Part shown: positions 4,161 to 23,341 of the stretch, in pieces
Layout of the letters: every line of letters begins with the position of its first letter
How positions within the stretch are numbered: position 1 is the first letter of the stretch
Source of the DNA: a virus
IMG/VR virus record: IMGVR_UViG_3300046462_000403
Coordinates: 1 to 25,295 of that record
Direction: 5' to 3' (one strand)
DNA: 25,295 nucleotides
The notes under the pieces: generated by a model
What the model was told of the DNA's origin: nothing
Database searches by the model: none
What the model saw: the letters and a program-made list of their open reading frames with translations, nothing else
Program-made: the position numbers and the translations under genes

Positions 4161-4603
4161 TGGATTGGCTCCTGGATGAGGGCCACAAGATCCTTGTACG
4201 TGCCACTTTCGGGCTTTCGCGCGGCCAGCGCTATCGAGAGCTGTTGCGCCTCCCGCTTGTGGGCGTCCGCCTCTGCAATCGCATCCTGCGCGCGCTTGGC
4301 TGCAGCCGCGGCGACGGTCCTTAAATCGTCTGTCGCCTTGTTCTGAGCGGTAATCGCCTTGTCCTGCTTGTCCAGGGTGTCGTGGCAAACGGCCAGGTTG
4401 TTGGTCAGGACCGAGATTTTGTCCCCGTCCGCTTTGGTCTCCGCGGCATGGGCCTTGTCAATGACCGCAATGCGGCCTTCTTCGAGATTGTTGTCGGTCC
4501 AGTATCCGGCATATCCGCCGGCGGCCAACACGCCGGCACCGGCGATGCCGAGGAAGATCCAGTGAATCAGTTTGAAGCCGGAGAACACGGAAAAGAAATT
4601 CAT
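4157..4603 (-). CDS. i-spanin (Rz-like inner-membrane protein)
   Basis: This 148-residue protein starts at MNFFSVF, with a GAGGGG ribosome-binding site just upstream. The longer open frame to 4852 overlaps the transglycosylase and is rejected. A single N-terminal membrane helix (about residues 13-35, IHWIFLGIAGAGVLAAGGYAGY) precedes a long polar, alanine-rich coiled-coil region. That matches i-spanins, which are type II membrane proteins with a periplasmic coiled coil. Position directly before the lipoprotein gene and directly after the transglycosylase supports the role. Identification rests on architecture and context, since spanins are poorly conserved in sequence. Confidence 0.75.
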   Translation of the reverse strand: MNFFSVFSGFKLIHWIFLGIAGAGVLAAGGYAGYWTDNNLEEGRIAVIDKAHAAETKADGDKISVLTNNLAVCHDTLDKQDKAITAQNKATDDLRTVAAAAAKRAQDAIAEADAHKREAQQLSIALAARKPESGTYKDLVALIQEPIQ

Positions 4604-4623
4604 TGGAAGTTCCCCCTCACGAA

Positions 4624-5220
4624 TCACCGCGACAATAGCGCCTTCTGCGCGCCCCATCGGTAGATTTTCGGCGCGTAATCCAACGTCTCTTTCGCATAGG
4701 GCCCGGTAATCTGTGGCAGACAGGCCATGATCTGTGCATATCCCGCCGCGTTCCTGCATAATTTCTGCGCTTTGAGGATATTCCCCAGGCCGGCGTTGTA
4801 GGACGCGAGCCCGAGTTTGTGCCGATCGACTTCCGGGCGAGGACTGGACCAATCCGACATGAGCCGTCCCATGTAGAAGGCGCCCGCCTGAATCGCGTAC
4901 TTCGCGTCGTTCGGGTTCGCGCCTGGTACGCCCATCTGGCGGATCACATCAGCCCAACTTTGCGGCATGAACTGTGCCAGGCCCTTCGCCCCGACCGGGC
5001 TCACGGCGTCGGGGTTCAATCCCGATTCCTGCCAGAGCTGTCCCCAATACAGGGTCCAGTCAATCGTGGGGAGGTAGGTGTTCGCGGCCGTTCGAATCGG
5101 CGCGTCGTACCTATCGGATAATGAGAGCGGCTGCGACCATGCAGAAACCGATCCAGCGCAAACCGTAATACAGAGCGAGAGCGCGAGGCTCAGAGTGAAC
5201 CTTGCCAATAACGTGCTCAC
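4624..5220 (-). CDS. Lytic transglycosylase (SLT domain) with signal peptide
   Basis: From a GTG at 5220 the protein is 198 aa. A signal peptide (LLARFTLSLALSLCITVCAG, then SVSA|W as a good cleavage site) precedes an SLT/lysozyme-like fold. Catalytic Glu65 lies in WQESGLNPDA, followed by GAKGLAQFMPQSW and ASYNAGLGNI, all signature motifs of family 1 lytic transglycosylases. It should cleave the MurNAc-GlcNAc bond, forming 1,6-anhydroMurNAc, and here probably acts as a secreted endolysin. The frame is open to 5283 (ATG 5262 also possible), but only the GTG start places the signal peptide at the N-terminus and has a GGGG upstream. Either start overlaps the preceding membrane-protein gene by at least 110 nt. 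Confidence 0.85.
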   Translation of the reverse strand: MSTLLARFTLSLALSLCITVCAGSVSAWSQPLSLSDRYDAPIRTAANTYLPTIDWTLYWGQLWQESGLNPDAVSPVGAKGLAQFMPQSWADVIRQMGVPGANPNDAKYAIQAGAFYMGRLMSDWSSPRPEVDRHKLGLASYNAGLGNILKAQKLCRNAAGYAQIMACLPQITGPYAKETLDYAPKIYRWGAQKALLSR

Positions 5221-5332
5221 TGAATTTGACCCCGTTGTTCCAGTTGAGGAATCGGGAGCCATAATAGACCAGCAGCAGCGCAAGCGCCGTGTAGAAAAGG
5301 TTTAGGCCGTTTGCCGTCAGAAAATAGTTCAT
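5111..5332 (-). CDS. Small membrane protein with two TM helices, holin candidate (73 aa)
   Basis: The protein starts MNYFLTANGL, with a GGGGG 2-4 nt before the ATG and a 4-nt overlap with the previous stop. One hydrophobic helix lies near residues 9-28 (LNLFYTALALLLVYYGSRFL) and another at the C-terminus (LRWIGFCMVAAALIIR), with a polar loop between them. I recognise no family. Its place immediately before a signal-bearing transglycosylase and spanins makes it one of three or four holin candidates. The last 110 nt also encode the transglycosylase signal peptide in another frame. Confidence 0.6.
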   Translation of the reverse strand: MNYFLTANGLNLFYTALALLLVYYGSRFLNWNNGVKFSEHVIGKVHSEPRALALYYGLRWIGFCMVAAALIIR

Positions 5333-7886: not shown

Positions 7887-8560
7887 TACAGGTGCGCCAC
7901 GAGACTGAGGGTGAAACGGGTAATCTGATTATCAATCGACGTGATCGAATAGCGGATTGCAGCCGGCCCCGATATATCGAGGGCCCATCCCGTGAGCGTC
8001 GTGTCGATTGAGCTTTGCGAATCCCCAAGCGTCGGCGGCGCGGAGGCCACGATTGAGTCCGTCAGCACAGGCGGGTTGTTGGCGGAAAAATCGTTTACCC
8101 AAACGTCCAGCTCAATGCTCCCTGGGAGCGTCGATTGCAGGACATTCATTGTCAGGGTGCAATCGACCGGGACAAAGGAATCGCCGCAGATCCCGGTGGG
8201 CGGGATTCCGCCGTTTCCGTCGACGGTCATTTCCGCGACGAGGAACGTACCGTTTTGCAGGACGGGCGGGATATAGGGCGCGACCGGATCGGCCGTCCAG
8301 ACTTCAACATCGTTCGCGTCCGTCAGCATCACTTTGTATTGGAGAGGCTGCAGGAAAATGTTGGGCAGTATGCCGGCCGCGTCCGCGACGACCGGGTTAT
8401 CATTTGGCGTGTCGAGGGTCGGATCCGAAAAGGTCGTAAGCGGCGTCGACGTTCCAGACGCGAAGAAATACAGCTTTGCGCCAGGCAGCGGAGCGCCAGT
8501 CACGGACGGCGCGTATTGATGCGGCATGACGAAACGGGACCAGGGTGTAGCGGCGCCCAT
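7886..8560 (-). CDS. Tail fibre/appendage protein with conserved head-binding-type N-terminus
   Basis: This 224-residue protein has an N-terminal domain (about residues 14-95) with the familiar tail-appendage pattern: GAKLYFFASGTSTPLTTFSD, DTPNDNPVVADAAG, then a YKVMLTDANDVEVWTADPV strand. Many phage tail spikes and fibres use this domain for attachment to the virion. The remaining C-terminal part is beta-rich and short, with no obvious depolymerase. It may therefore be an adaptor for another receptor-binding protein, or a compact fibre. Start and stop are each shared with a neighbour through TAATG overlaps, which indicates translational coupling to the giant gene and the 436-aa gene. Confidence 0.75.
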   Translation of the reverse strand: MGAATPWSRFVMPHQYAPSVTGAPLPGAKLYFFASGTSTPLTTFSDPTLDTPNDNPVVADAAGILPNIFLQPLQYKVMLTDANDVEVWTADPVAPYIPPVLQNGTFLVAEMTVDGNGGIPPTGICGDSFVPVDCTLTMNVLQSTLPGSIELDVWVNDFSANNPPVLTDSIVASAPPTLGDSQSSIDTTLTGWALDISGPAAIRYSITSIDNQITRFTLSLVAHL

Positions 8561-11500
8561 TATTGCTGTCCTTTTTGAAGCGTTCGGAGTTGGTTGCGCT
8601 GGTCCGGTGTGGCGTAGCGCGGAGCCCGCGCCCGCGAGGCCGGGGTCGCCCAGGAGCGCAGCAGGTAAACCCGCTCCCGTGCCGTCATGCCGAGTTTGGC
8701 GAGCGCCCGAGCGGCCCCGTTCTTATCGCCGGAATCATATTGCCGGTGAATGTCCGGCAGCGCCGCTTGAATAGCCTGTTCGTGCTGGCTTCGAATATCG
8801 TGCGCGAAGCCGGCCGCAGGGCCTCCCGGATAGCCGCGGCGAACCGTAACGCCGACCGTGCGAAGCGCCAGTTTGGCCGCGTCCGTGCTTCGCGCCTGTC
8901 CCATGAGGATATTGTAACCGGACTCAATCTGATCCATCGGCAAAAAGGCTTCAATGTAATGGCCGATGATCTTGCCCATGACGACTTCCGGGCTGTCCGA
9001 GGGTTGCCAGAGTTTCTTGTCGCCAATGCCGGCGTTGTTCGAAACCATGTCGAGGGTCGGCCGCGCGAACGGCGAGAGTTTGCTTTTCAGCGTGGCGAGC
9101 GGCGCCTCCGTCCAGTTCGCATATTCTTCCGCGAACTTCCCGAGCGGGTTGCGGGCGTAAATCGCCGTCCCCTGCTTATCGTATCCAATAAGGACGCGGC
9201 GGAGCGGCATGCCCGTCTCAGGGTCAATCTCGTTTGTCGCGGTCGCGGAAATCAGATCCAGCGGAATGAACGGATTGAGCAGCCGGAGCGGGTGGGCCTT
9301 GATGCCGGCGCTCAGGCTCTTCAAGCGATCGACATAGTCCTGCCAGATTTGGTCGCCGTTCGAACGCGCGGTCAAATAGGCAATGCCGTTGGTCAGCAGC
9401 GAATTGGCCGCGTACATCATCGCGACGTCAATCGCCACAATGGCGATCGTCTTGCGACGGGCGAGAGAAGTCACCTTCGACAGCGTTTCAGCGCCAGCAT
9501 CCCGGAGGATTTGCGCCTGCAGGTCGCGCGGGAGACCGTTGATCATATCCTTGACCACGGCCAGGTTGCCGAGGGTGTAGGTGCGCGAGAACAGGACCAC
9601 GTTCGCGATCTTGCGGGAGAGCTGAGACATTGCCTCCCGCGGCAGAGTGCCGGCGTAGCGATTCGCCCAATGCGCCGCCATCCTGTCCGCAGTCTGTTGG
9701 TCGTAACCCTTCGCGACCATGTTATCCGAGAACGTCTTGAAGAGCCCCGCTTGCAGGTCCGCCACGCGATCCCACAACAGCGTATTGTGGAGAAAGTCGC
9801 CCATCGCATCGACTGAGCGATAAACCTTCTCCCCGGCTTTCGGATCAAACAGCCCCGGTACCGCGCCCAATATCTGCGCCGTCCAGGAGCGGCCAGGACG
9901 GATCTGTTCGCTTGCCGCCACGCCGGTAATGTCCTGCATTTCGAAGTGGCGCCCTATCGGGACGAGACCGGCGAGAATCGCGCGGGTCATAACCTCCGGG
10001 TCGTTCTTGATAAGGTTGCCTTCGGCCAGGATCTTGAGATTGGCGCCTTTGAACGTGAGCAGGCCCTTTGGGTCCGCCGGCAGCGCGCGCCCGAGCTCCG
10101 TCAAAAGATGGAGCTGCACGAAGGGCGAGAACATGACGTTATTCATGGCCTTGCCCTTCAAGGTCATAAACGCCTGGTAGGCCGCGCCGTCCGGCGATGC
10201 GAGCACCGAGCGCAGCGGGCCCTCGAAATCATCGCGGACGTAAATCGGCACACGTTCGAAAACGGTTGTGCCGTCCTCATTCTTCATTGCCGACAAGCGC
10301 CCGGTGTCGGGGTCTCTTGTGAACCGCGGGCGCCAGGTCGTGAAAGCGGGATTGCCGTCAATCGTAAACCAGCGGTGTTCCGCGTCCACCGGCGGAGCGC
10401 CCTCAACGACCGTCTCCTCCCCAACCTGCCGTCCGGCTTCCTTGATCGAATTGATCAGCGCGCGTCCCGCAACCGCTTCGCGCAGTTTCATAGTCGCCAG
10501 CGGCAAGGTCCGAATATCCCGGACGACTTTGGCCTCGGTGTCGAATTTGGCCGATGCCGCCGCTTCGCTCTCCTCAGTCGTGAGGTACTTGCGCTGTTTG
10601 AGGTTTGGCGTCGAAGTCCGGACCTGCCGGCCGTAGCCGGGGATCGACCGTGCCTCATTGCCGCGCAGCGGTTTGGCCCCGCCTTCCGCCATATCAACAA
10701 ACATGCGCGGGACGTAGGACGGGAGCCCTTCGTTCTCTACACGGACGAGCCCGACAGCCTTTGCCGCCTCCCATGTCATTTCCGCGTCACGCTGTTGCGC
10801 CAGGACCTCATCGCGCTCCTCGGCCGTGAGACGGGCAAGGCCGTATGGCTCAAGACGCTCGCCCTCAAAGTCGTTTCGGCCCCGTTGCCGCGCGAGTTGG
10901 CGCTCGACCGATTCCTCATCGGCCGCTTCCCACATGCGTTTGCGCTGTTCGGGCGTGAACCTGTCTTTCAACCGCTTATCCATCTGCTGCCCGTGCCAGT
11001 GGGCGAGACGGATTCTGTTGGCCCAATCCTTCACCACGGCGCGCGCGGCGTCTCCGCCTTCTGCCATCGGGGCGAGGAGCATCCGGAAGTTGCGGACGAT
11101 TTCCTGCGCGCTACGGGCCGGATCTTGCAGCTTCTCCGGGAGATTGTCGGGGTTGAGTTGCAACCTGGTCGCGCGCCCAAATGGCCGCGGTTCCGACTTC
11201 GACGCCGCGGCTACGAAGCCGCGAACGCCGCGGTTGCCGATTTCGCCGGACTCAATGCGGTCGAAAATGTTGCGCGCCGTGACGTCGCCACCAAATGTCT
11301 TTCGCAGATAGTCGCGGACGGTATCGAGGAGCTTTGCGAGCCTCTCAAAAATCGGCCGTACCAGCGCAGGCACAATGCTTGGCGCCTTCCGCCACGCGGC
11401 AAAGTGGTCCGCAATCGCTTCTTCAATCTGTCCGTCCGCGTCCATGTGGGCGTAACGCGCGGCTATGTTGTGTTTGCCGATCCAGTCGCCCTTGCGCGCA

Positions 11501-14500
11501 GCGGCTTCGAGCTTTGCCCATTCGCCGGAGCTCAGGAACCCGTTGTGGCGGAGCCAGTGGATTGCTTCGTGCCGCAGCGTATGGGCTGCATCCGGAGAGC
11601 GCAGGGACCAGGCGATAACCCGGCGCGCGCCCAGGGCGGTAAAGCCGGTGATGGAGTTCTCACCGATTTCCTTCGCGAATCCCTTGGTCGCCGGGGAAAT
11701 ACTTTTGGCGACGATAACTTCCGCCTTGGGCACGATGCGATTGGCGATTTTCGTTACTTGCGCGATCACAGCGCTTTCCCGCGCCGATGGCTTATCAGGG
11801 AGTTGGGCTATGACGTCGTCAATCAGGAGCGGCCGTTTCAGGCCGCCACCGGCCTCTTCTGGCCGCTCGCGGGCGCGCTCGAATAGCGGCTGGCCCCGCA
11901 TGACGGACTCACGCATGGATTCTGTGATGGGGATGCTGTGGACGGGAGTGCCCTGCCTTGGGCCTTCTCGCATCCGGCCACCAAGATATTCCGCCGCCGC
12001 TTCTGAGAGATGCTCATTCGCGGCTTCCTTGAACGGGCGTCCGTCCTCGATTGCGTAATAGAGGCTGCGGATTTGGTTCTTTACGCCAGATGGCAGGGCC
12101 TCCCACGATCTACCGGACATTTTGTAGGCGACGGCTTCCTTTGAAACGTCGGGGCCTTCATAGAAAGACAGAGCGTTTCCGGGTCCAGAGACCGTCGTTT
12201 CCTCAACCTTCGCCCCCCATTTCTTGACGTACTTGTTCGCGAATTGCGGGATGATCTTGTCGTAAAATTCCCGCATCCCCTTCCCGCCCACTTTGAGGTC
12301 GAGGCCGCCGTAATTCTTCCCGAAGTATTTGGTATCCGGCTTTGGCTGCGCCTCATATTCCTTCGCGTCTTTAATGATTTTCTCGGCAAGATCCTTTCCC
12401 ACATAGTCGGCAAGGTCCGCCTCCGTCCGCGTATCGTTTCCGATTTCGTCGCCGTGTTTGTAAACGCGAACGGTATATTTGCCGTCGTCCTCTTTTACGA
12501 CGTCGAGTCTATCGACGTGCTTCGACAGGTCGTAGCGATCGGCGTTTGTGTCGCCCGTGTCCCAGGAGAGCCGGTCGTAACCGTTTTCGGCCGCGTAGCG
12601 GAGCAGCCGCTTGAAAACGAGTTCGTGCCATGAGTTCTTGAATGGCGCGTCCGGGACGCCGTTTTTTGCCTCCCTCGCCGCCTTGAGTTCCTGCCTGGCG
12701 CGGGACCAGCGCTCCGCAAGATCCCTGTCCGCTACGGTATCGTAATCCCAACTATACGGGTCGCCGCCGATTGCCGCGCGCGCCGTGGCTACGTCGTCAA
12801 ACCCGAAATTGTCGTGACGCTTCACCATTTCTGTGACTTCCGGCCGCATGTCGTCGTAAGCCTTTTCGGCCGCCTTGAAGCGCTCCTTATGGACTATCCC
12901 GCTGTACCCCTGCTTGCGGCCCCTTTGATGCCAGTCGCTTTGAATCTCCGCTGTGTGGAGGACTTTCTCGCCATTGGGGCCCACGCGATCATCGACGCGG
13001 CCGTGTCCGACGACGTTCGGCTCCTCAAAGTGTCCGGTGTTAAAATCCTCTGTACTTCCGACCCGGTTGACGACGCCACCGGCGCCATCATCCATTGGGA
13101 TTCGTTTCAACTCGCCGCCGCGCGATGGCAGCGTGAGTTTGATTTCGCGATAATTCTCGCCGCCCTTGAGGCGCCAGCCGCCGAATTTTGTCGGGGTCTT
13201 GATTTTCCCCTCAGACGGCAGGCCTTCATATTCGTGCGGGCCAAATTCCTTGTTCAGCGCCTTGAGCCGGTTCTCCGCTTCATGGTGGCTCATCTGGCCG
13301 CCACGATCGCGCAGATTCACAATCTCATCATAGCGCCGCTGATACTCTGCCGTTTTCTCCGGCGACCACGGTTCACCGCCAATGCTCTCGTGAATCTGAA
13401 CTTCGTGCCCGCTCACATGGGCGAGCAGTTCATCGCGCGTGATCGGCTTCGTCTGCCCACGGAGAAAGTCCTCAATGTGCGACCATTCCATTTCTTCGGA
13501 CTTAATTCCGGGCGTGTTTCGTAACGTGGCGAGCCACTGAGCGCCGGTCGCCTTCGCCGTCTTGGAGGTTTCGACCGCGCGCGTGAGAGCGGAGAAGAAC
13601 GGCTTTTCAGCCGCCTGCAGTTGGAAAAGCGATTTCTGCTTTGTCGGAGGCGGACCAAACATATCGGGTTCGCGCGACTTCTCGGATTTCGGCCGGACAT
13701 ATTGTTCCGCCTGCCGCCGCGCGATCGTGCGCGTGTGCTCCTCGGCTTTCATCCTGGTAGCGGTTTCGTCCGACCGCCTTTGCAGGTCAGCCTCAATGCG
13801 CTCACGGGTCGCGGCGTCGGCGTTCTTGTGGATCAGCGCCTCGGTCTCGGTCGCCTTCTCCATGCCGGGGAAAACATATTGCGGGAGCGCGCGGCCGTGT
13901 GCGTCGACGGCGCCGGGTTCGGTGATTTTCTCCTCTTCTTCGCGAAGGCTGTCCCGGCCTTCGAGGAGCTTTATTTGCGTGGGCTTCCGGTACGCTTTAG
14001 GTGGAGTGCGTCCAGGACCGTTCTCCGGGCGAACTTCATTTCCGGATGGTCTTTCTGCGCTTCGGTTTCGCGCAAAAATGTCTTTAATTGTTCCATCGAA
14101 TGATACGGACCCGGCGGGTCGATAAACACCGGATGGCCGGCGTGGAGCGAGCTCGAAGCGCTTGCTGTCCTTGAGGCTTTCCCTGATGCCACTTGCGGCC
14201 TCCTCTATGGCCTGTTCGACCCAACCGCGATGCCGAGCCGGCACTTCGTAATTCGTGGTGTAATCAATCAGCCCCGCGCGGTCCAGCGCTGCATTGCGGA
14301 TATAGGCGCGGAGTTCGCGGCCTTCGTCCGGGTGCATTTCGCCGCGCTCGAATATCGGATAGCCGTATTTGTCCGCCGCCTTCCCGGCGTTGTACGCGGC
14401 GAGCTGAAACTCGAGACGACCGACCGGCTGTGAAAATTTCGTCCCCACGTTTTTGAGCGGCCGCGCCAGGGTCGCGACGTGGAAATCCCCGTTCTGGCCT

Positions 14501-17500
14501 ATGACGACCATCCCAAGATGGCCGGGATAATTCAGCGCAACGACGTCAGGCTCAGAAGGGCCGGAACCGCTCGGATGATTGTGCAGCGAGACGATGCGAG
14601 TTTGTGGATCTTCCCACATGGCGATTGTTGTCGGGCCAAACGTAACCGCCTCGGGTTGCTCGCTCGTATGGGCTTCAATCCCCCCGTTCGAGTGAACAAT
14701 GACCATGCTCTCATTGCCGGTCTGCCGGCCGCGCTCCATGACAAACGAAGCGCCGACCCTGGCACCGTTGACCGGCTCATAGGCGAGCGGTACCCCGAGC
14801 CTTGCCGCGTAGGCGCGAACATCGGTTGTGATGTTCGACATGGCCGCTCTCAGGCCGCGGGTGAACTTAAATGTTTGATCCCGTGGGAATGATTCTACTG
14901 GACCGGGCCCCGGGGCGGCTCCGGCTCTTCCGCCAGTGTCCGCAGTTTGCCAGCCTCCCGGAGACGCATTGCCCGGAACTTCGGATCCGGCTCCTTGGCC
15001 GCCTGGGCTTCGAAAACCCTCGCCATCGCTAGATAGCCCGGGCGTAGTATCGGTCGCTCCGCCAAGTTCCTGTCTCCTCTTCGCGAGCGCGAGGATATCC
15101 GCCGGCGAGGTCGGCGGCAATCCTAGCAGGTTTTCGCCACCAACCGCTTTTGCCGCTTCCTGCGTGAACAACCGCGCCGCGTCTGCAAGTGACTTTCGGC
15201 CAGTCGGGCGCTTCCAGTTCTCCGTGTCACGGAACATCAGCCGCAGCCATGACTCGGTGAGCGGGTCAATCATCTGTCCAGTAAACACGTCTCTCTGGAT
15301 GGTCAGGTCTCCGAGCTTTACGCCTTCCTGCCGCGCGCGTTCGACCAGGTTCGCAGCGGCAAGGAAATTCGCGGTTTGATCCATTTCCGCCGGTACAGAC
15401 CCTCGCCGCACCGCAGCACGAAGCCGCGCCCACTCCGGGGCAACGTCCAGCATCGCGCCGCCGATCGCTTTAATGTCCGAGTCCGGACTTTCGGACACGT
15501 TCTCCACCAGCGCGGGATCGCCATACGCCTTCGCGAGCAATGCGTTCTGTACGCGCCGGATGCCGTCCTGGGACAGCGAACCGTCCCCTTGAACCATTTT
15601 CCCGTATTCCCCCGGCGTGAGCGCGCGAGCGGCAAATTCACGGATGAACGGTCGGTTCTGCACCATCTTGACGTCACCGCCCTGGTACAGGTCGAGCGCT
15701 TCGTCGCCAAGCGCGTTCGCGTCAATCATGGCCTGTTCGGTCGACGAGTATTGGCCGGTCCCCGACTGATTGGCCTCACGGACGAAGGCCCCGCGCTCCG
15801 CCGGAGTCATTTCCTGATTGCGGACGCGCACAAGAACCGGCGCCGTCATGCCATCGACGGGATAGCCTTGGTCTTTCAGATATTGCCTGTAACCATCGGC
15901 TGCGTCCGAACCGTCCGCATACGCCCGCTGGATGGCGAGCGTTCGACCATTGCCCGATTCCACAATTCCGGTCGGGGAAATAATCGGCGCGCCATCGGTA
16001 GCTGTGGCGGACTTGTCGAGCAGTTTTGGATTTAGGTTTTGCGCGATCGTCGCGATCTGCTGTTGGCTCACGGCGCGCGAGCGGTCGCGCGGCTGCAGCT
16101 CCGGCGGAAAATCCTTGTTCGTCACCCCATCCAGCGTTTGCGACGGGACCAGGTGATTTGCTTCGACCACCGCATACTGAACCGGCACTTCGCGCCCGGT
16201 CGACGTCACCGCAACATCGTCCCCAATTACGCGCCGCGGTATTCCGCCATCGCCTTGTGGGGCCGCTGTGACCTCTGGCGCGGGGCGCGGAGGACCGGGC
16301 ACCGGTGGAGCGGGTGTGACGGAAGGGGGTAGGACAGAGGCCGGTGGAGGAGGCTCACCGGGGCGCGTGAGGCCGATTGCACCGAGACCATTATCCACCG
16401 GCGGAGTCGGACGTGCTTCCGGAGCTTTGGGTGCAGGGGCCGCCGCGCGTGGCTTTGCAGGGGGAACCGGCTTTGCCCAATCCGGGACTTCGACGCGCGG
16501 GACTTCCGGATGGCCGCCGCGCATGGCCTCAATCTCAGCGCCACCGAATATGTCGCGCGCAATGTCCTGTGCCTGCTGCTGCGGGAGCCCGGCGCCAGTC
16601 AGCACGTTCGTAAGGCCCTGAGCCCCGCCATGCAGGACGCCCTCAAAGGCCCTGCCCATCAGGTTCATTGCCTCAGCGCCGGTATATCCGAGCGTGGTCG
16701 CCAGATAGCCCGGAAGCGCGTTCCAGACCGTGAGACTTTGCTGCGTCGGAGCAACGCCCATCTTCTGCAGGAAATCGACGGTTGCATTACCCATTTCACC
16801 GAATGGCGCTCCGCCTTCCACGAACCCACGAACCGCAGCGCCAGCCGTGCTTTTGTCCGCCTCAAACGGCGTCAACTCTCCCGTTTCGCCTTGAGCAACA
16901 TTCGCAATGCCGCGCGATGCCACCGAGCCACCCGGACCTTTCCCGGACTTGAGATTGGTCGTGAGCCAGTTTTCGACGCCCTGCCAAAACGTCGGCTTTG
17001 GCGGGTCAAGATCATCGAATGTGATCGGCCCGGATTTCGGAACGTCAAGATCATCGAAAGTGATAGGTCCGCCGGATGCAGCCGGAGCGCCAGCAGTCGG
17101 GGCCTTGCCCGTCGCCAGTTTGACGCCTGTAGCCATCTGTTGCGGCGTGTACGGATTTTTACCGTTTTCGCGCGTGAAGATGGCGCCCAGGAATTGATTG
17201 ACCAGGTTTGGGTCGGAGAGGTCGAGAGGATCGTCGGGCTTCACGCCCAATTCCGCGGCCACCTGGGCGACATACGCCGGCGTGTCGTTCTCGTTTGGAG
17301 GAGCCCAACCGTTTTTCGGGTCGCCAATAATCCCGGCGACAGTAGTCAGCCCGTGCTTCTCACCCTTGGCCTGCAGATTGATTGCAGCCGCCCGGATTCC
17401 GTCCTCGGGAGTGCCAAAGGTCGCAAAGCCTTTGTTGGCTCCGGTCTGCCCCTGCCACTTGGTTTTGTCCGCGCGGATATTGCCGGGATTGTTGTTGCGG

Positions 17501-17667
17501 AGCCCCGCAGGGACGACAGCAGGCTTCGCGGGAGCCGGCGGAGTGCCGGTCTCACTCTCAGCCGGTGCGGGCGCCTGTGACGTGTCAGGCGCCGCAGCGC
17601 CGCCGGTTTCATCCGTTTGATCAGAGCCCCCCGCGGCGTCGAGGTCGTCGAAGGTAATAACGGCCAT
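8560..17667 (-). CDS. Giant virion-associated polyvalent protein (3035 aa), probable ejection protein
   Basis: Layout in residues: an ITFDDLD motif (4-10) and a P5-like lysozyme domain (about 55-187; LRNNNPGNIRA...WQGQTG...WAPPNEND). ITFDDLD recurs twice (202-208, 215-221). A Pro/Ala linker (about 395-470) leads to a DdrB-like ParB domain (about 478-660, ESGNGRTLAIQRAY). A JAB/RadC-like motif HNHPSG with S1038 and D1041 (domain about 955-1070) follows, then charged linkers. Large-polyvalent-protein modules span about 1350-1930 (PFKNSWHELVFKRLLRYAAE; MRESVMRGQPLF). An HExxH domain follows (HEAIH 2033-2037, third ligand EEAIAD at 2083-2087). A long helical C-terminal part (about 2150-3035) has a hydrophobic segment at about 2736-2766. 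It occupies the P22 gp16 slot, so I infer packaging and ejection with the DNA: local wall digestion, then host or DNA modification. The frame is unbroken throughout. Confidence 0.9.
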   Translation of the reverse strand: MAVITFDDLDAAGGSDQTDETGGAAAPDTSQAPAPAESETGTPPAPAKPAVVPAGLRNNNPGNIRADKTKWQGQTGANKGFATFGTPEDGIRAAAINLQAKGEKHGLTTVAGIIGDPKNGWAPPNENDTPAYVAQVAAELGVKPDDPLDLSDPNLVNQFLGAIFTRENGKNPYTPQQMATGVKLATGKAPTAGAPAASGGPITFDDLDVPKSGPITFDDLDPPKPTFWQGVENWLTTNLKSGKGPGGSVASRGIANVAQGETGELTPFEADKSTAGAAVRGFVEGGAPFGEMGNATVDFLQKMGVAPTQQSLTVWNALPGYLATTLGYTGAEAMNLMGRAFEGVLHGGAQGLTNVLTGAGLPQQQAQDIARDIFGGAEIEAMRGGHPEVPRVEVPDWAKPVPPAKPRAAAPAPKAPEARPTPPVDNGLGAIGLTRPGEPPPPASVLPPSVTPAPPVPGPPRPAPEVTAAPQGDGGIPRRVIGDDVAVTSTGREVPVQYAVVEANHLVPSQTLDGVTNKDFPPELQPRDRSRAVSQQQIATIAQNLNPKLLDKSATATDGAPIISPTGIVESGNGRTLAIQRAYADGSDAADGYRQYLKDQGYPVDGMTAPVLVRVRNQEMTPAERGAFVREANQSGTGQYSSTEQAMIDANALGDEALDLYQGGDVKMVQNRPFIREFAARALTPGEYGKMVQGDGSLSQDGIRRVQNALLAKAYGDPALVENVSESPDSDIKAIGGAMLDVAPEWARLRAAVRRGSVPAEMDQTANFLAAANLVERARQEGVKLGDLTIQRDVFTGQMIDPLTESWLRLMFRDTENWKRPTGRKSLADAARLFTQEAAKAVGGENLLGLPPTSPADILALAKRRQELGGATDTTPGLSSDGEGFRSPGGQGAGSEVPGNASPGGWQTADTGGRAGAAPGPGPVESFPRDQTFKFTRGLRAAMSNITTDVRAYAARLGVPLAYEPVNGARVGASFVMERGRQTGNESMVIVHSNGGIEAHTSEQPEAVTFGPTTIAMWEDPQTRIVSLHNHPSGSGPSEPDVVALNYPGHLGMVVIGQNGDFHVATLARPLKNVGTKFSQPVGRLEFQLAAYNAGKAADKYGYPIFERGEMHPDEGRELRAYIRNAALDRAGLIDYTTNYEVPARHRGWVEQAIEEAASGIRESLKDSKRFELAPRRPSGVYRPAGSVSFDGTIKDIFARNRSAERPSGNEVRPENGPGRTPPKAYRKPTQIKLLEGRDSLREEEEKITEPGAVDAHGRALPQYVFPGMEKATETEALIHKNADAATRERIEADLQRRSDETATRMKAEEHTRTIARRQAEQYVRPKSEKSREPDMFGPPPTKQKSLFQLQAAEKPFFSALTRAVETSKTAKATGAQWLATLRNTPGIKSEEMEWSHIEDFLRGQTKPITRDELLAHVSGHEVQIHESIGGEPWSPEKTAEYQRRYDEIVNLRDRGGQMSHHEAENRLKALNKEFGPHEYEGLPSEGKIKTPTKFGGWRLKGGENYREIKLTLPSRGGELKRIPMDDGAGGVVNRVGSTEDFNTGHFEEPNVVGHGRVDDRVGPNGEKVLHTAEIQSDWHQRGRKQGYSGIVHKERFKAAEKAYDDMRPEVTEMVKRHDNFGFDDVATARAAIGGDPYSWDYDTVADRDLAERWSRARQELKAAREAKNGVPDAPFKNSWHELVFKRLLRYAAENGYDRLSWDTGDTNADRYDLSKHVDRLDVVKEDDGKYTVRVYKHGDEIGNDTRTEADLADYVGKDLAEKIIKDAKEYEAQPKPDTKYFGKNYGGLDLKVGGKGMREFYDKIIPQFANKYVKKWGAKVEETTVSGPGNALSFYEGPDVSKEAVAYKMSGRSWEALPSGVKNQIRSLYYAIEDGRPFKEAANEHLSEAAAEYLGGRMREGPRQGTPVHSIPITESMRESVMRGQPLFERARERPEEAGGGLKRPLLIDDVIAQLPDKPSARESAVIAQVTKIANRIVPKAEVIVAKSISPATKGFAKEIGENSITGFTALGARRVIAWSLRSPDAAHTLRHEAIHWLRHNGFLSSGEWAKLEAAARKGDWIGKHNIAARYAHMDADGQIEEAIADHFAAWRKAPSIVPALVRPIFERLAKLLDTVRDYLRKTFGGDVTARNIFDRIESGEIGNRGVRGFVAAASKSEPRPFGRATRLQLNPDNLPEKLQDPARSAQEIVRNFRMLLAPMAEGGDAARAVVKDWANRIRLAHWHGQQMDKRLKDRFTPEQRKRMWEAADEESVERQLARQRGRNDFEGERLEPYGLARLTAEERDEVLAQQRDAEMTWEAAKAVGLVRVENEGLPSYVPRMFVDMAEGGAKPLRGNEARSIPGYGRQVRTSTPNLKQRKYLTTEESEAAASAKFDTEAKVVRDIRTLPLATMKLREAVAGRALINSIKEAGRQVGEETVVEGAPPVDAEHRWFTIDGNPAFTTWRPRFTRDPDTGRLSAMKNEDGTTVFERVPIYVRDDFEGPLRSVLASPDGAAYQAFMTLKGKAMNNVMFSPFVQLHLLTELGRALPADPKGLLTFKGANLKILAEGNLIKNDPEVMTRAILAGLVPIGRHFEMQDITGVAASEQIRPGRSWTAQILGAVPGLFDPKAGEKVYRSVDAMGDFLHNTLLWDRVADLQAGLFKTFSDNMVAKGYDQQTADRMAAHWANRYAGTLPREAMSQLSRKIANVVLFSRTYTLGNLAVVKDMINGLPRDLQAQILRDAGAETLSKVTSLARRKTIAIVAIDVAMMYAANSLLTNGIAYLTARSNGDQIWQDYVDRLKSLSAGIKAHPLRLLNPFIPLDLISATATNEIDPETGMPLRRVLIGYDKQGTAIYARNPLGKFAEEYANWTEAPLATLKSKLSPFARPTLDMVSNNAGIGDKKLWQPSDSPEVVMGKIIGHYIEAFLPMDQIESGYNILMGQARSTDAAKLALRTVGVTVRRGYPGGPAAGFAHDIRSQHEQAIQAALPDIHRQYDSGDKNGAARALAKLGMTARERVYLLRSWATPASRARAPRYATPDQRNQLRTLQKGQQ

Positions 17668-17668
17668 A

Positions 17669-19087
17669 TCAGAGACCGTTGATCGGGATGCCCGCCGCCT
17701 TTAGGCGGTTGAGAATGGTCGCCCGTTGATCAGGATGCTTCTGCAGCGCCGTCCGGGCGGCATTGATCGACGCCGTCATATCGGCCTGGGACATTGGCGC
17801 GCGCGCCGGTCCCGGGGCCGCAGCTCCCGGAGGCCCTGCCTGTGTGATCTGAGCGGCAATCTCAGCCGCTTTCTTGTTGATCCACGCCTCGGGGCCGCCT
17901 TCCGGCTGAAAGCCCGGATCCGAAAGTGTCGTGTCGTACAGTTCGCGCGAAGCCTGGGTAATCGCGTATTTCTGGACTTCCTGGGGAGAAAGCGTCCGCT
18001 TGCCCTGGGCATAATCGAGAGCGCCCTGAGCATCGCCCGGGTGGGTCGCGAGCCAAGCCTGCTGCTTATACATGAACAGGGAGGTTTGCGCGGACGGCTT
18101 GGGCCCGAGCGAACTGCCACCAACCTTTTCCTCGCCCGAGGTCTGTTCGACATAGACGCCCTTGCCGGTACCCTGTTGCGTCCCGGAGAGAACGTATTTT
18201 GGCTCGTACAGCGGCTTGGGCTGTGGGGCCGGGAGGCCGGATTGCGCGGCTTCAAGATCAGCGGCGCGCGCGGCCAGAATGTCCCGGCGCGGGATAACCT
18301 GTTCATTGAGGAATTTGTCGACGGCCGCGTGGTTTGTCGCGTAGCTGAATTTGTCCGTCCGGTTGAAGTCGAGACCGGCAAGCGACGGCGGAATCTGCAC
18401 CCCGGCCGTTTTCAACTCAGTGATTTCATCGCGGAGCTGTTCCGGCGTTTGGGCGCGCCCGAAAGCCGAAATGATCTTGTTGTAGGTCTCCAAGGACTTC
18501 TGAACCGCTGGCGCCGGCGCCGTCGCAATCGCACGGCTGTATTGGTCGGTATCGAATCCGGCCGCCGGCTTGTTTGTGCCATCGGCGCCACGGCGTTGTC
18601 CGGCCTGGGTCCGCGGGCCATAGGTGTCGGCCACGTTTTCCGCGAGCTTTGACGTGTAATTGCCGATGTACTGCTTTGCGTTCTTGACCCCCTTATCGGC
18701 GGCCTCCTGCATCTTTTGGTCCCAAATATCGGCCTGGGCCTTGGGATCGTTCGGGTCCGCCGCTTGCGCCGCGCGCGCCGCCTCCGCGAGAAGCCCGTTT
18801 TGATAGTCCTGGGTCTCGGTGTCCGACTTCTGCCCCGCGGCCTTTATCGTGTACGGCGCCAGCTTGTTCGCCGTATCGAAGCGGAGTTGCGATTCCCCCA
18901 ATTCGGTTTGGGCTTTCTGGACGTCAATCGGCGCGAGCTGCCGCGCCTTGTCGTAATTGAGCTGTGCCGTCCCAATGTCCAGCGGCGTCAACGCCTGCAT
19001 GCGCTTGTATTGGTCGCCAGCCTGCGCCAGCGAAAGCGGAGACGCGATCGGCGTTGGAGGCGCAAAATCGGGGAAGGGACCGGCCAT
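17669..19087 (-). CDS. Internal virion protein, gp20-slot ejection protein candidate (472 aa)
   Basis: The protein is strongly helical, rich in Ala and Gln, with no signal peptide. Near the N-terminus it has loosely repeated segments at residues 33-85: LTPLDIGTAQ, LAPIDVQKAQ and LAPYTIKAAG. These suggest stacked amphipathic helices such as those of ejected channel-forming proteins. The middle part (EAARAAQAADPNDPKAQADI) is coiled-coil-like, and the C-terminus is basic (NRLKAAGIPI). It lies between the gp7-like gene and the giant gene, exactly where P22 has gp20. It probably belongs to the ejection set that crosses the periplasm. The gene ends 1 nt before the giant gene starts. Confidence 0.7.
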   Translation of the reverse strand: MAGPFPDFAPPTPIASPLSLAQAGDQYKRMQALTPLDIGTAQLNYDKARQLAPIDVQKAQTELGESQLRFDTANKLAPYTIKAAGQKSDTETQDYQNGLLAEAARAAQAADPNDPKAQADIWDQKMQEAADKGVKNAKQYIGNYTSKLAENVADTYGPRTQAGQRRGADGTNKPAAGFDTDQYSRAIATAPAPAVQKSLETYNKIISAFGRAQTPEQLRDEITELKTAGVQIPPSLAGLDFNRTDKFSYATNHAAVDKFLNEQVIPRRDILAARAADLEAAQSGLPAPQPKPLYEPKYVLSGTQQGTGKGVYVEQTSGEEKVGGSSLGPKPSAQTSLFMYKQQAWLATHPGDAQGALDYAQGKRTLSPQEVQKYAITQASRELYDTTLSDPGFQPEGGPEAWINKKAAEIAAQITQAGPPGAAAPGPARAPMSQADMTASINAARTALQKHPDQRATILNRLKAAGIPINGL

Positions 19088-19367: not shown

Positions 19368-20105
19368 CTATGCCGCCATCGGGTAATACTGCCCGGTAAG
19401 CTGGCTTGGGGTTATGGGGATCGTCCCCGGAATGTTGTCGTTTGAGCCCTGCAGCATCGAGTAAGCCTGCAGCGAATTGTTGATCGTGTTGCCAAACGTC
19501 GAGGCCACATTGTTGATGCCGTTTCCAACCGCGCCGGCGCCAAGCATCTGCATATTGCCGGCCGTCGAAGCGGCGTTCTGCCCCTGGGTACCGACCCCCG
19601 CAGCCGAGTTCTGGCCGATCTTCGCGAGGTCCATGTTCTGATTGAAGTAGTTGCCGAAGAGCTGGTCCGCCATTCCCTGATTGTAATTGACGGTATCCTT
19701 GAGCTGCCCGCCGGAGAGCAGGAGCCCTTTCGCCGCAGCCGTGCGGTCGAGACCCTGTTGCCCCTGCTGCAATGCGAATTGGTATCCCGGATAATTCCGC
19801 AGGCCGTTGAGCATGTTCGCGGACGCCGTGGGCCCGCCCGCGCCCATGAGATTCTGCAGATTGGAGAACGCCGTTTGGCCGCCCATCATGTACGGCGCCA
19901 GGTCACTCCGCGTCTGCTGATACATTTTCATTTGGTTTGCAGCGGCATTATTCGCCGCGCCGGCCTCCGTGCTGGCCGCGGACATTGAACCATACGCCGA
20001 CAGCCCGCCGCCGATCACAGATCCGGCGACGGCCGCAACCGGGAGGCTGATACAGACCTCGCAAAGCATCAGGCGATCGAGGCAGTAACTCCGTTCACGG
20101 AACAT
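19368..20105 (-). CDS. Phage DNA transfer / ejection protein, P22 gp7-like
   Basis: This 245-residue protein is Gly/Ala/Asn/Gln-rich. A glycine-zipper hydrophobic helix lies near residues 21-39 (LPVAAVAGSVIGGGLSAYG). The next part (YQQTRSDLAPYMMGGQTAF, YPGYQFALQQGQQGLDRTAA, AKGLLLSGGQLKDTVNYNQG) matches the gp7/DNA-transfer-protein pattern of P22-like phages. Such proteins are packaged, leave the virion with the DNA and help form the conduit across the envelope. The ATG at 20105 shares a base with the GNAT stop (TGATG), so coupling is likely; an internal ATG at 20069 would bring the hydrophobic helix nearer the N-terminus. In P22 the order gp7-gp20-gp16 matches what follows here. Confidence 0.8.
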   Translation of the reverse strand: MFRERSYCLDRLMLCEVCISLPVAAVAGSVIGGGLSAYGSMSAASTEAGAANNAAANQMKMYQQTRSDLAPYMMGGQTAFSNLQNLMGAGGPTASANMLNGLRNYPGYQFALQQGQQGLDRTAAAKGLLLSGGQLKDTVNYNQGMADQLFGNYFNQNMDLAKIGQNSAAGVGTQGQNAASTAGNMQMLGAGAVGNGINNVASTFGNTINNSLQAYSMLQGSNDNIPGTIPITPSQLTGQYYPMAA

Positions 20106-20554
20106 CAGAGTTTCATCCTGTAAACGATTTCAGCGGGGCGGGCCCCCAGGCGGGAAAAGAACGACGACAGCCGCGGCGGACTGTCATTCCAGAAATGCGG
20201 GTAGCACTCCACGGCGCCGGATTGGCGGAGCCACGCCAGCGAGCGGCGAAACAGCTCCAACGCAAGAGTCCCCTCACGCCGCGAGGGATCAATGTACCAG
20301 CCACTTTGCAGCGCAATCTTCTGGCATGTGATCAGCGATTTGGTGATGAACCAAACGCAATACCCGATGAGACGCCCGCTTTCGCGCGCCGTCGCGATCA
20401 GCAGAGCGCCAGCACCTTCGAGAGCCTTCGCCTGGGGAAGGTCGAAAGAAAACTCCTCCGCCGTGCAGGCTTTCACTTCCGCGCAATGAGCCCGCATCAA
20501 TGGCTCGGCCTCCGGCCAGAAACGGGCAAGCGTTTCGCGCGCAATCACGAGCAC
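20105..20554 (-). CDS. GNAT-family N-acetyltransferase
   Basis: This 149-residue protein has the GNAT fold order: N-terminal helices, a strand pair (GALLIATARESGRLIGYCVW), a beta-bulge strand (ALQSGWYIDPSRREG) leading into the acetyl-CoA-binding helix (TLALELFRRSLAWLR), then a strand and HFWNDSPPRLSSFFSRLGAR. The pyrophosphate loop RREGTL is a degenerate form of the canonical R/QxxGxG/A motif. The target amine is unknown; phage examples are often encoded among virion genes. The start is a GTG: 20554 gives a 10-nt overlap with the sulfotransferase-like gene, while a second GTG at 20548 gives the 4-nt GTGA overlap common in this window. The stop is coupled to the gp7-like ATG. Confidence 0.82.
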   Translation of the reverse strand: MLVIARETLARFWPEAEPLMRAHCAEVKACTAEEFSFDLPQAKALEGAGALLIATARESGRLIGYCVWFITKSLITCQKIALQSGWYIDPSRREGTLALELFRRSLAWLRQSGAVECYPHFWNDSPPRLSSFFSRLGARPAEIVYRMKL

Positions 20555-21102
20555 GTTGCGAGCTCCGCTTTGAGTTTGGAGAGCATCGACGCGCGATTCC
20601 GCAACAGCGCCATGCGGGCCTTAATATCAATCTGGATATTGGTCGCGGCGAGCTTGGCGTACCAATCAGGATCGAACGGAACACCGAGGCAGGTTTCGAA
20701 AATGTCCCGGCATACCCACTGGCTTTTCAGGTCCTCATAGCTGCAGCTTTTCACGCCCGGGTAGTAGGAGAAATCCTCGAGCATCTTCGCCCGTTCGCGC
20801 AGCTCGGTATATGGCACCTGAACGCCGCAGCGCTGCAGAGAAATCATCACATCATCGACCGGACGGCGGACGGCGATAAACTTCGATTCCGGGAATTTCA
20901 GCACAAGCGCCTGCCACGCGATCATGGCGCCGGTTTCAACCGTGCCGCGCATCATGGAGACCGCAGCAACAAAATCGCCCACGCTGTCGCAGTTTACCGC
21001 TGTGTCGTGGCCGACAATCGCGCCCTTATAGGAAAGAAACGCAGACAGCCATTTGCTGCGCGAACGCGGAAGCGTCAGAATGAAAAATGGTTTAGCGCCC
21101 AA
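20545..21102 (-). CDS. Sulfotransferase-like P-loop protein
   Basis: This 185-residue protein has an N-terminal FFILTLPRSRSKWLSAFLSY, matching the 5'-phosphosulfate-binding loop of PAPS sulfotransferases (TxPRSGSTWL type). FIAVRRPVDDVMISLQRCGV at about residue 74 matches the 3'-phosphate-binding RxPxxxxxS motif. It is shorter than most sulfotransferases (about 250-300 aa) and lacks a visible acceptor-binding C-terminal domain, so the activity may be changed or lost. The frame begins with a TTG at 21102 (in-frame TAG 10 codons upstream, P-loop starting at residue 6), so a later start is unlikely. It is followed by, and overlaps, the GNAT gene. Sulfotransferase activity is inferred from two motifs only. 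Confidence 0.7.
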   Translation of the reverse strand: MGAKPFFILTLPRSRSKWLSAFLSYKGAIVGHDTAVNCDSVGDFVAAVSMMRGTVETGAMIAWQALVLKFPESKFIAVRRPVDDVMISLQRCGVQVPYTELRERAKMLEDFSYYPGVKSCSYEDLKSQWVCRDIFETCLGVPFDPDWYAKLAATNIQIDIKARMALLRNRASMLSKLKAELATCS

Positions 21103-21227: not shown

Positions 21228-21926
21228 TCATCCCGCAAGCCACGCCGCGCCGTCCGAATAGACCGGACATTTGACCGCACCGCCGCCAACGACAGCCGTC
21301 GCGAACGCCGGCCCAAGCGCATCCGTCACGAAGGCCCGCGCGCCCGCACCGGACGCGCCAGCCGCCGGCAGACTCCCGACAACGCCGGTGAAGATGTATG
21401 CGGACAATATCCCGCCACTGAGCGAGAGCCCGGTCGCAACCGTGATTTCCTGGGTCGGCCCCGCGGAGCCCGCCGATCGACCGAGTATCCGCGCATCGGT
21501 GACGTCCTGGATCTTCGCGTAGGTAACGTTCTTGTCCGTGATTTTTGCCGTCGTCACGGCGGCCGCAGCGAGCTTCGCTGTGGTTATGTTTCCGTCCGCG
21601 ACCTTTGGTGTCGTAACGGCAGCGTCGTCAATTTTGCCCGTCGTAACCGCCAGGTCCGCGATTTTGCCGGTCGTAACCACAAGCGGCTGAATCGTCGTGA
21701 CGCCATCGGTCGTGATCTTAACATCGCCGTGCATCCCGAAAAGGATTGCGATTTTGTCGATAACCCCGCCGCCGCCCTGTATCCCGGCCCAAAGCGATTG
21801 CAGGAAGTTGAGCGCAGGGACCGTGAGATAGCCCTGCCCCTTGAACCGCTCATCCTGCTTCGTGAACGGCACGTTTGCGAGTGGCGGCTGTAATTGGCCG
21901 CTCGGGGCCGGAGGGAGTTGAGCCAT
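21228..21926 (-). CDS. Decapeptide-repeat tail fibre/needle-like protein (232 aa)
   Basis: The protein has a short proline-rich head, then a conserved-looking segment (KGQGYLTVPALNFLQSLWAG). Six 10-residue repeats follow at residues 84-143 of the form VTTxKIxDxx (VTTGKIADLA, VTTGKIDDAA, VTTPKVADGN and so on). The C-terminal knob (GVVGSLPAAGASGAGARAFV and YSDGAAWLAG) resembles the ends of phage fibres. VTTAKI-type repeats are known from many tail fibres and probably form a trimeric stalk. The gene follows the gp10-like gene in the exact slot of the P22 tail needle gp26 and has nearly the same length (P22 gp26 is 233 aa). Start and upstream stop overlap as TGATG. Confidence 0.75.
   Translation of the reverse strand: MAQLPPAPSGQLQPPLANVPFTKQDERFKGQGYLTVPALNFLQSLWAGIQGGGGVIDKIAILFGMHGDVKITTDGVTTIQPLVVTTGKIADLAVTTGKIDDAAVTTPKVADGNITTAKLAAAAVTTAKITDKNVTYAKIQDVTDARILGRSAGSAGPTQEITVATGLSLSGGILSAYIFTGVVGSLPAAGASGAGARAFVTDALGPAFATAVVGGGAVKCPVYSDGAAWLAG
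21498..21677 (-). repeat. Six tandem 30-bp repeats (fibre stalk)
   Basis: Six imperfect 30-bp units encode the VTTxKIxDxx decapeptides of the fibre/needle protein. The most alike copies share GTCGTAAC and ATTTTGCC on the plus strand. Such in-frame repeats can expand or contract by recombination and so alter stalk length without a frameshift. Confidence 0.7.
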
Positions 21927-23341
21927 CAGGCCATTCCAGGATTCGCGTTTCCGTGTGTGGCGATCAGTACCCGTTTGACCGGATCTGTAATCACCAGCTC
22001 AAAGACCCACTGATAGGCTTGCCCGAGATTGATCCAGCGTTGGCGGGTCTGGAAGTCACCGATTTTCCCGAGCGAGCGCGCAGGCTGCAGCTTCGACCAG
22101 GTACGCCCGCCATCCTTCGACCAGCGCAGCATCACCACCGGCGAGGAGCCCTGCCCGGATTCCAGCCCGACGCCGTTCTCCATGTCCAGTTCGAGGCGCT
22201 TGACGAACACGCGCCGTTTGTCGGCATGCACGGGCGAGGAGTGGGCGAGCATCGGAAGGGTGTTCGCACCCTCCAAATAGGCGTTCCAGTCGAGATTCCA
22301 GATGGTCCCGTTCGCGTAATCGCCAATCAGGATGCGGTTATAGACTTCGGCCGCGCAGTTGCCGCGCCAGCGGCCCAGGCTGTTGTTGTTCTCATCCCAC
22401 GATTCGCGTTCGTGCCACTGTTTTGTGGACAGATCCAAAACCCAGGTATGCGGGACGCTCGGGAAGGTCAGATGAATCATCTTGTGACCTTGGAGCGTGT
22501 AGGTGAAGCAAAAGGCGTCCGAGACGTCGCCATAACTGGAAATCGCCTTTTCGACCGCGTGGGTCGATTGGCGAATCGCGACGTTGCCCTGTAGCCGGTA
22601 AAACATATTGTCATTGCCGAGGAAAAACAGCGCGTCGTCCTGGGCAATGATCGAGCCCGCCGCCTTGCACCCTCTCGGGATCACGCCGCCGGCGTAGCGC
22701 GCGAAGGGGAAGTTCTGCGCGCCGGCGTCATACCACATTTCGATATGGTTCTGACCAAACAGAAAAAGGAGCTGCAGATTCTTCGCCACGCCAATGAGGA
22801 GCCCGGAATCGGCCTCCGCCGTCGCAAAGTCGTCCCCGTTGTAAAGCAGCCCGTCGAGGAGCCCGGAGATAAAGTATTGGTTTGTCCCGTGCCGGTTGAG
22901 GACAAACACATCGTCGAAAAACGTCAGGGTGTCGGCGCTGAAAAAGTTGGGACTGACGATCTGCTGAAAGGCGCCCGTCGCGACCGTCGCGATGTACCCG
23001 GCAACGCCGTTAATCACCATGACCTGATTCCCGTTGTCGCACATGACCACGGGCGAGAGGCCGGAGATTCCGGAGCCGATCTTGCGGAAGCCCCCGTTTG
23101 TGTTGAGCCGGTACAGCGTATCGCCGCCAACCGCCCATAGGTTGCCCCGATAATTCCACATGCCGCGCACGGGATACGTCGGCAGCGTCGTGAAGGGCGT
23201 CAGCCCGGGAGCTCCAAAAATCGGGACCTGGCTCTTGGTCCCCTGGGGCTCGGATTCAATGAAGCAGTTGAGCATCCTCTGAGCCGAAAGCGGGAGGCTT
23301 TGGCTCTCATAGGACTGCATGCCGAAAACGATTTCAGGCAC
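21926..23341 (-). CDS. Packaged-DNA stabilisation protein, P22 gp10-like tail hub
   Basis: The 471 residues match the size of P22 gp10 (472 aa). The start MPEIVFGMQSYESQSLPLSAQRMLNCFIES and following FGAPGLTPFTTLPTYPVRGM are typical of the gp10 / Phage_stabilise family. The rest is a series of beta repeats (NYRGNLWAVGGDTLYRL, DDVFVLNRHGTNQYFISG, DNMFYRLQGNVAIRQST) as expected for its propeller-like body. In P22 this hub joins the portal/gp4 ring to the needle and tailspikes and keeps DNA in the head. The start is a GTG (23341) with a strong GGAGG upstream inside the gp4-like stop region. The stop is coupled to the fibre gene by TGATG. Confidence 0.88.
   Translation of the reverse strand: MPEIVFGMQSYESQSLPLSAQRMLNCFIESEPQGTKSQVPIFGAPGLTPFTTLPTYPVRGMWNYRGNLWAVGGDTLYRLNTNGGFRKIGSGISGLSPVVMCDNGNQVMVINGVAGYIATVATGAFQQIVSPNFFSADTLTFFDDVFVLNRHGTNQYFISGLLDGLLYNGDDFATAEADSGLLIGVAKNLQLLFLFGQNHIEMWYDAGAQNFPFARYAGGVIPRGCKAAGSIIAQDDALFFLGNDNMFYRLQGNVAIRQSTHAVEKAISSYGDVSDAFCFTYTLQGHKMIHLTFPSVPHTWVLDLSTKQWHERESWDENNNSLGRWRGNCAAEVYNRILIGDYANGTIWNLDWNAYLEGANTLPMLAHSSPVHADKRRVFVKRLELDMENGVGLESGQGSSPVVMLRWSKDGGRTWSKLQPARSLGKIGDFQTRQRWINLGQAYQWVFELVITDPVKRVLIATHGNANPGMA

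Follow-up and report, generated by a model that had tools for sequence, protein, structure and literature searches.

The stretch of DNA analyzed here (the window) is a 25,295-base IMG/VR virus record, IMGVR_UViG_3300046462_000403, probably a fragment. On its minus strand lies a gene for a protein of 3035 amino acids (aa), which we call the giant protein and in which a lysozyme domain is joined to several other modules. The gene and its parts are as follows.

8560..17667, minus: polyvalent protein gene, 3035 aa, 330 kDa; residue i begins at 17667-3(i-1)
17638..17658, minus: ITFDDLD motif, copy 1, residues 4-10, N-terminal
17095..17508, minus: lysozyme/lytic domain of the Enc34-epsilon15 gp15 type, residues 54-191; W121, Y132, and E167 conserved
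17044..17064, minus: ITFDDLD motif, copy 2, residues 202-208, just past the lysozyme
17005..17025, minus: ITFDDLD motif, copy 3, residues 215-221, just past the lysozyme
15820..16200, minus: DdrB-like ParB domain, residues 490-616; R575 in a GNGR motif
14257..14772, minus: JAB/JAMM domain, about residues 966-1137; E986, H1029, H1031, S1038, and D1041
11863..13614, minus: module without a name, residues 1352-1935; the model suggests a GNAT-like fold interrupted by inserts, and ExQSD on core strand 4 is invariant
11230..11772, minus: zincin-like metallopeptidase domain, about residues 1966-2146
11557..11571, minus: HEAIH zinc motif, residues 2033-2037
11419..11424, minus: E2082-E2083 (in EEAIAD), candidate third zinc ligands
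8563..11139, minus: conserved, mostly helical C-terminal core, residues 2177-3035

The frame opens with an ATG at 17667 and runs down to 8560 on the minus strand with zero internal stops; read on the plus strand, the same interval has many. The G+C content of the gene by codon position is 66/48/71%, and the neighboring genes are alike. The protein also matches homologues that we designate L008 (43.8% over 1779 columns), L009 (46.8% over 726 columns), and L002 (37.8% over 1158 columns). Because the codon-position values match those of the neighbors and the frame is conserved in homologues, we regard 8560-17667 on the minus strand as a genuine coding frame. An earlier reading of the letters of this DNA (the original prediction) had described a single unbroken 3035-aa frame here; its coordinates were right, and our analysis adds the strand, which it left unstated.

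Residues 54-191 match PHROG 873 (E value, 5.5e-47), the N-terminal part of Gp29 (PDB entry 9vvp), a phage protein of 1295 residues with a solved structure (E value, 6e-23), and the Enc34 endolysin 7q47 (E value, 4e-11). When these residues were aligned with epsilon15 gp15, CF418P1, Enc34, and Gp29, W121, Y132, and E167 were among the invariant columns. The Enc34 endolysin has the catalytic residue Glu131, together with Trp79 and Tyr95 (PMC8943055), and in our reading of the alignment Glu167, Trp121, and Tyr132 pair with these three. The catalytic Glu, the Trp, and the Tyr of an Enc34-type lysozyme (PHA02564) are all present. The matches and the catalytic residues agree with the predicted N-terminal wall hydrolase, and the first domain very probably has muralytic activity. 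The predicted DdrB-type ParB domain was recovered as a Pfam match (DdrB-like ParB, PF18763) at residues 490-616, scoring 123.9 bits against a cut-off of 27.6 (E value, 5e-36), with R575 as the conserved Arg. Similarity to P1 DdrB spans about residues 486-796 at about 35% identity. The linkers between the front modules are rich in Pro, Ala, Gly, and Ser.

In the JAB region, E986, H1029, H1031, S1038, and D1041 form the JAMM set (E...HxH...SxxD) and are invariant in six phage proteins, namely residues 966-1137 and five other giants. Pfam Prok-JAB (PF14464) scored 17.6 bits on this region, below its cut-off of 25, and RadC was not listed; the best solved-structure match of the JAB profile was a Mov34/MPN protein (E value, 0.019). 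The JAB-like motif of the original prediction nonetheless holds, on the five motif residues and the homologues. In the zincin, the EEAIAD sequence lies 45 residues beyond HEAIH, and H2033, E2034, H2037, E2082, and E2083 do not vary among the 28 aligned rows. Thus, the HExxH domain and its plausible EEAIAD third ligand were correctly called, and the combination that marks a zincin, HExxH with a downstream Glu on a second helix, is found here. We rate the chances as about even that this domain is a processing protease, acting in cis or on partners. The C-terminal core is common to L002, L007, L008, and L019 at 33-44% identity and has one clear hydrophobic helix, near residue 2741. Its profile found no convincing solved structure by sequence.

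The genes that place the giant gene among virion functions are these.

17669..19087, minus: 472-aa protein in the place of P22 gp20, directly upstream; no family match
19368..20105, minus: P22 gp7-type DNA ejection protein (phrog_598; E value, 7.5e-36)
20105..20554, minus: stand-alone GNAT acetyltransferase gene, in a place kept in related phages
21926..23341, minus: P22 gp10-type tail/head-closure protein (phrog_578; E value, 9e-107)

The giant gene starts 1 bp past the stop of the 472-aa gene. Upstream of it the order of transcription is gp10-type gene, fiber-like gene, hydrolase-like gene, GNAT gene, gp7-type gene, and 472-aa gene; downstream are more minus-strand genes, including a lytic transglycosylase gene. 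The gp7-family and gp10-family genes support the earlier placement of the giant gene among ejection genes. The stand-alone GNAT gene stands just upstream of ejection genes in the window, in Piluca, in TPWB-05, and in epsilon15, and in Atu_ph08 a GNAT gene is near the giant gene of that phage.

Comparison with the relatives, which come from viral contigs, separates what is kept from what changes. L008 (2636 aa) has the ParB, the GNAT-like module, the zincin, and the C-terminus in common with the giant protein, but an M15 peptidase takes the place of the lysozyme and the JAB is cleanly missing. In L009 (3005 aa) the shared parts are residues 187-867, the zincin, and the final 170 residues; this protein starts with an SLT domain and has ART and GHKL ATPase modules in its interior. 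L002 (1830 aa) has only the zincin and the C-terminus in common, and an InPase domain stands at its end. We read the giant chain as a mosaic, in which the zincin, the C-terminal core, and the slot appear fixed and the wall enzyme (lysozyme, M15 peptidase, or SLT) and the effectors appear exchangeable. Elsewhere, epsilon15 gp15 has the same lysozyme domain as the giant protein, and Alcaligenes phage Piluca gp47 and TPWB-05 (gp47-type) carry the ParB on a separate ejection-cluster protein. Like the giant gene, epsilon15 gp15/gp16/gp17 and Piluca gp46/gp47/gp48 occupy the slot after a GNAT gene. In epsilon15 and Piluca the functions are spread over three genes, whereas here they are in one chain, to which a zincin and a JAB are added. 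Since the lysozyme and the ParB are on separate cluster genes in epsilon15, Piluca, and TPWB-05, one chain here would do the work of neighboring ejection genes.

Two further matches were seen. A 5016-aa frame open at its 5' end (L036) has the order JAB (3062), zincin (3254), and GNAT-like module (3466), with whole modules shuffled. A scan of genome collections gave one contig, from a Hyphomicrobiales metagenome-assembled genome, with only the zincin in common.

Proteins of this kind have been described. Iyer et al. 2017 (PMC5512222) defined phage polyvalent proteins; that paper names the DdrB-ParB, the zincin hub, and a lysozyme fusion and proposes injection with the DNA followed by zincin-driven release of modules. 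The proteins treated there resemble the giant protein in having many unlike enzymatic domains, virion-gene neighbors, and a zincin hub, and the fusion of lysozyme to DdrB-ParB is the one given for the Acinetobacter prophage protein WP_005204948. Two features of the class, unlike biochemical activities in one polypeptide and nearness to late or virion genes, were found at our locus. However, the order lysozyme, ParB, JAB, GNAT-like module, zincin, and helical C-terminus is not given in the available part of the paper, where a RadC-type JAB is listed only from polyvalent proteins of conjugative elements. P1 DdrB is like the giant protein in its ParB and about 180 residues after it and, according to PMC5512222, in having a zincin in the same protein; it differs in its size of about 109 kDa, and no lysozyme, JAB, or GNAT-like match was found there. 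P1 DdrB and DarB are virion proteins (PMC9024508). The 4515-aa giant gp69 of podophage JC1 was detected in virions purified on cesium chloride (PMC9144972). Compared by description only, JC1 gp69 (Bcep22-like, Lessievirus) is, as here, a giant polyvalent-type protein in a podophage late cluster, but it is annotated as DarB-like. Because of the definition of Iyer et al. and the detection of the JC1 giant, P1 DdrB, and P1 DarB in virions, we assign the giant protein to the phage polyvalent proteins as so defined; it is therefore of an already known kind and bears out a known strategy in a podophage lineage not sampled before.

The lysozyme, JAB, and zincin catalytic residues are intact, the gene lies in a slot with gp7- and gp10-family genes, and relatives exchange the wall enzyme. 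For these reasons we think that the giant protein very likely belongs to a short-tailed phage and is a polyvalent ejection protein of the phage type. That it is packaged and ejected is, taken by itself, highly probable. The earlier idea of a packaged, ejected multi-tool fits, by analogy, with Iyer et al. 2017, with the JC1 virion proteomics, and with the presence of P1 DdrB and DarB in virions. In such a scheme, the protein would be made late together with the head and tail genes, as its position suggests, and would enter the head, probably via the short N-terminal tag ITFDDLD. It would then be ejected ahead of or with the DNA, alongside the gp7-type and 472-aa proteins; its helical C-terminal core may belong to the ejection machinery, judging from position and from the conservation of the core. 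The lysozyme domain, whose catalytic site is intact, would open the peptidoglycan locally. Next, the zincin may cut the chain so that the modules part, as PMC5512222 proposes for the class, or it may act on a host protein. Least certain is the final step, in which the ParB, JAB, and GNAT-like modules would work in the cytoplasm in the opening minutes of infection, the likeliest role being DNA protection or takeover on the model of the P1 Dar proteins.

Several observations weigh against this reading. The giant protein has no sequence match to P22 gp16, and no gp16 family was found among its PHROG matches. The predicted assignment to the P22 gp16 slot is supported by position in the ejection cluster only. 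A model of the C-terminal 1086 residues, built from six rows, reached a mean predicted local distance difference test score (pLDDT) of only 55.7. The structure nearest to it, the PhiM1 ejectosome (8vb2), reached a Z score of 4.6, too low to be of use; the structural matches listed for this low-confidence model included no zincin fold. In addition, the N4 virion RNA polymerase, which has a zincin-type domain, is packaged uncut according to PMC5512222, which bears on the idea of cutting in cis.

We considered whether the giant protein is instead a Dar-type antirestriction protein, whose chief function is to guard the entering DNA and whose wall enzyme merely aids entry. The likeness of its ParB part to P1 DdrB speaks for this, as does the occurrence of the JAB module in phage proteins annotated as DarB-like antirestriction. 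However, domain matches found no DarB-type adenine methylase or helicase modules in the giant protein. The role of P1 DdrB is to help add DarB to the capsid (PMC9024508), and therefore similarity to DdrB alone does not mean protection. We consider antirestriction unlikely as the chief function; a narrower claim, that the ParB and JAB modules act in DNA protection or takeover, has a somewhat better chance, still short of even. It is improbable that the zincin serves as a maturation protease at the prohead stage, with other virion proteins as its substrates instead of its own chain or the host: P1 DdrB, which carries such a domain, is processed before packaging (PMC5512222), but nothing ties the zincin here to capsid substrates, and since the window is part of a genome, a separate prohead protease could lie beyond it. 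Slightly more improbable still is a mainly structural ejectosome protein like T7 or P22 gp16, with every module except the lysozyme vestigial or a building block, for although the gene is in the ejection cluster, the C-terminal core is the longest shared part, and T7-type gp16 proteins often have an N-terminal lysozyme domain, modules are cleanly gained and lost between relatives, and vestigial status would be unexpected given zincin residues invariant in all 28 rows and JAB residues invariant in six proteins.

Besides the modules with names, the giant protein carries the module at residues 1352-1935. We found at least 522 relatives of it among at least 599 matched stretches of viral contigs. 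The prediction of large-polyvalent-protein modules at 1350-1930 was right in that this segment is a conserved module, but none of the Pfam LPD models matches it, and no Pfam model was consistent among 58 aligned members. The annotation of plasmid hits suggested the name LPD23, but none of the 58 members matches PF18838. In a plasmid protein that has both, LPD23 lies at 690-746 of the stretch and the similarity to the module at about 2001-2247, and we rejected the name because the LPD23 model sits elsewhere in that protein. When the JAB and the GNAT-like module were aligned together with MAFFT, JAB rows were matched to the wrong module; this alignment was discarded in favor of separate ones.

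The profile of the module found no convincing solved structure by sequence. A model from the 58-row alignment had a pLDDT of 84.5 and a predicted template modeling score of 0.79. Foldseek gave no match to it below an E value of 0.09. With VIA-align, GNAT acetyltransferases filled most top rows: 8g8k (Z score, 9.7; root mean square deviation, 3.4; 144 residues), SpNatD (8.3), AtaTR (8.1), NatD (8.0), and GCN5 (7.8). The core strands and helices are at 87-91, 97-115, 122-136, 165-173, 213-223, 229-237, a helix, 360-364, a helix, 483-488, and 567-574 in model numbering (residue = model + 1339), and there is a large helical insert. This order looks like that of a GNAT with large inserts, which is our reading of the secondary structure and not the output of a tool. 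The acetyl-CoA loop [Q/R]xxGx[G/A] is absent after strand 4, where the module reads SDWHQxGRxxGY and then a long insert. Therefore, we describe the fold of the module as GNAT-like but do not class the module as a GNAT. The predicted GNAT-like fold is likely, and acyltransferase activity is less likely than not. The module occurs widely among phage giants, and Pfam has no model for it; its activity would explain part of many early-infection proteins. Separately, L288 1-10287 (Pseudomonas aeruginosa plasmid p382) encodes a 5,000-residue protein with about nine ADP-ribosyltransferase (ART-PolyVal) domains, which also has LPD23 and a stretch resembling the GNAT-like module.

The ITFDDLD motif of the giant protein has counterparts in its relatives. 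In L009, DFSDL stands at the N-terminus, and NFDDLL and SFDDLL come past the SLT domain; in L008, repeats of the DPW(G/A) type surround the M15 domain; and PP[D/S]DL repeats occur in L002. In IMG/VR we looked for pairs of FDDL-coding sites separated by 16-46 bases and counted open reading frames of at least 300 aa that were complete at the 5' end. Among the matches listed, the first copy lay within residues 1-25 in 33 of 54 in-frame pairs (31 distinct N-termini; typically MGMFDDLIPADPKAGGGGGMFDDLIPKEK), against 2.0 expected if positions were uniform, an expectation that is crude; moreover, related contigs are not independent. With a DPW motif, 10 of 30 cases among the matches listed were N-terminal, where 1.5 would be expected on the same crude basis. 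The N-terminal enrichment of FDDL is strong. The reversed motif LDDF, used as a control, was N-terminal in 2 of 6 in-frame cases, which are too few for a strong contrast. In a set of 20 proteins picked for FDDL, the motif columns are invariant and little else is common (mean column identity, 11%); ParB occurs in two members, and LPD5, LPD1, and RadC domains occur in one. At 14 of 39 FDDL loci, a neighbor or a part of the protein itself matches podophage ejection-cluster proteins. A tblastn search with a synthetic FDDL peptide gave no match, and the word FDDLIP did not occur in the literature searched.

In P1 DarB, the N-terminal 30 residues suffice for packaging (PMC9024508). We compared that N-terminus with ITFDDLD and found the sequences unlike; thus, what can be transferred from DarB is the principle of an N-terminal signal and not its sequence. 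FDDL is possibly, with a chance somewhat under even, a packaging or docking tag, and its internal copies may mark old fusion points. A broader proposal is more doubtful than this. Portable tandem N-terminal tags would direct unrelated large virion proteins into the head or onto the ejection apparatus, with a class hydrophobic-x-FDDL-[I/L/V/D], a second class DPW[A/E/D/G], and perhaps a third class PP[D/S]DLV; internal copies would come from fusions of formerly separate tagged proteins, and the module at 1352-1935 would represent a new family of GNAT-fold enzymes in ejected proteins. If true, the tags would predict from sequence alone which phage proteins get packed and injected, and the tag could serve as a short address for bringing reporter proteins into heads, a use already demonstrated with P1 DarB.

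Two other parts of the window were noted. Between the fiber-like gene and the GNAT gene, 20545-21102 (minus) encodes a small protein whose PHROG match is hydrolase-like and which by eye resembles a sulfotransferase; it is odd cargo inside a virion gene cluster. The overlapping minus-strand frames 3828-4388 and 4157-4852 resemble a two-component spanin, in which an inner-membrane protein (MNFFSVFSGFKLIHWIFLGIAG...) is paired with a lipoprotein-like signal (LIAGIMFFGTACGH) in a different frame, and the lytic transglycosylase gene at 4624-5283 precedes them.

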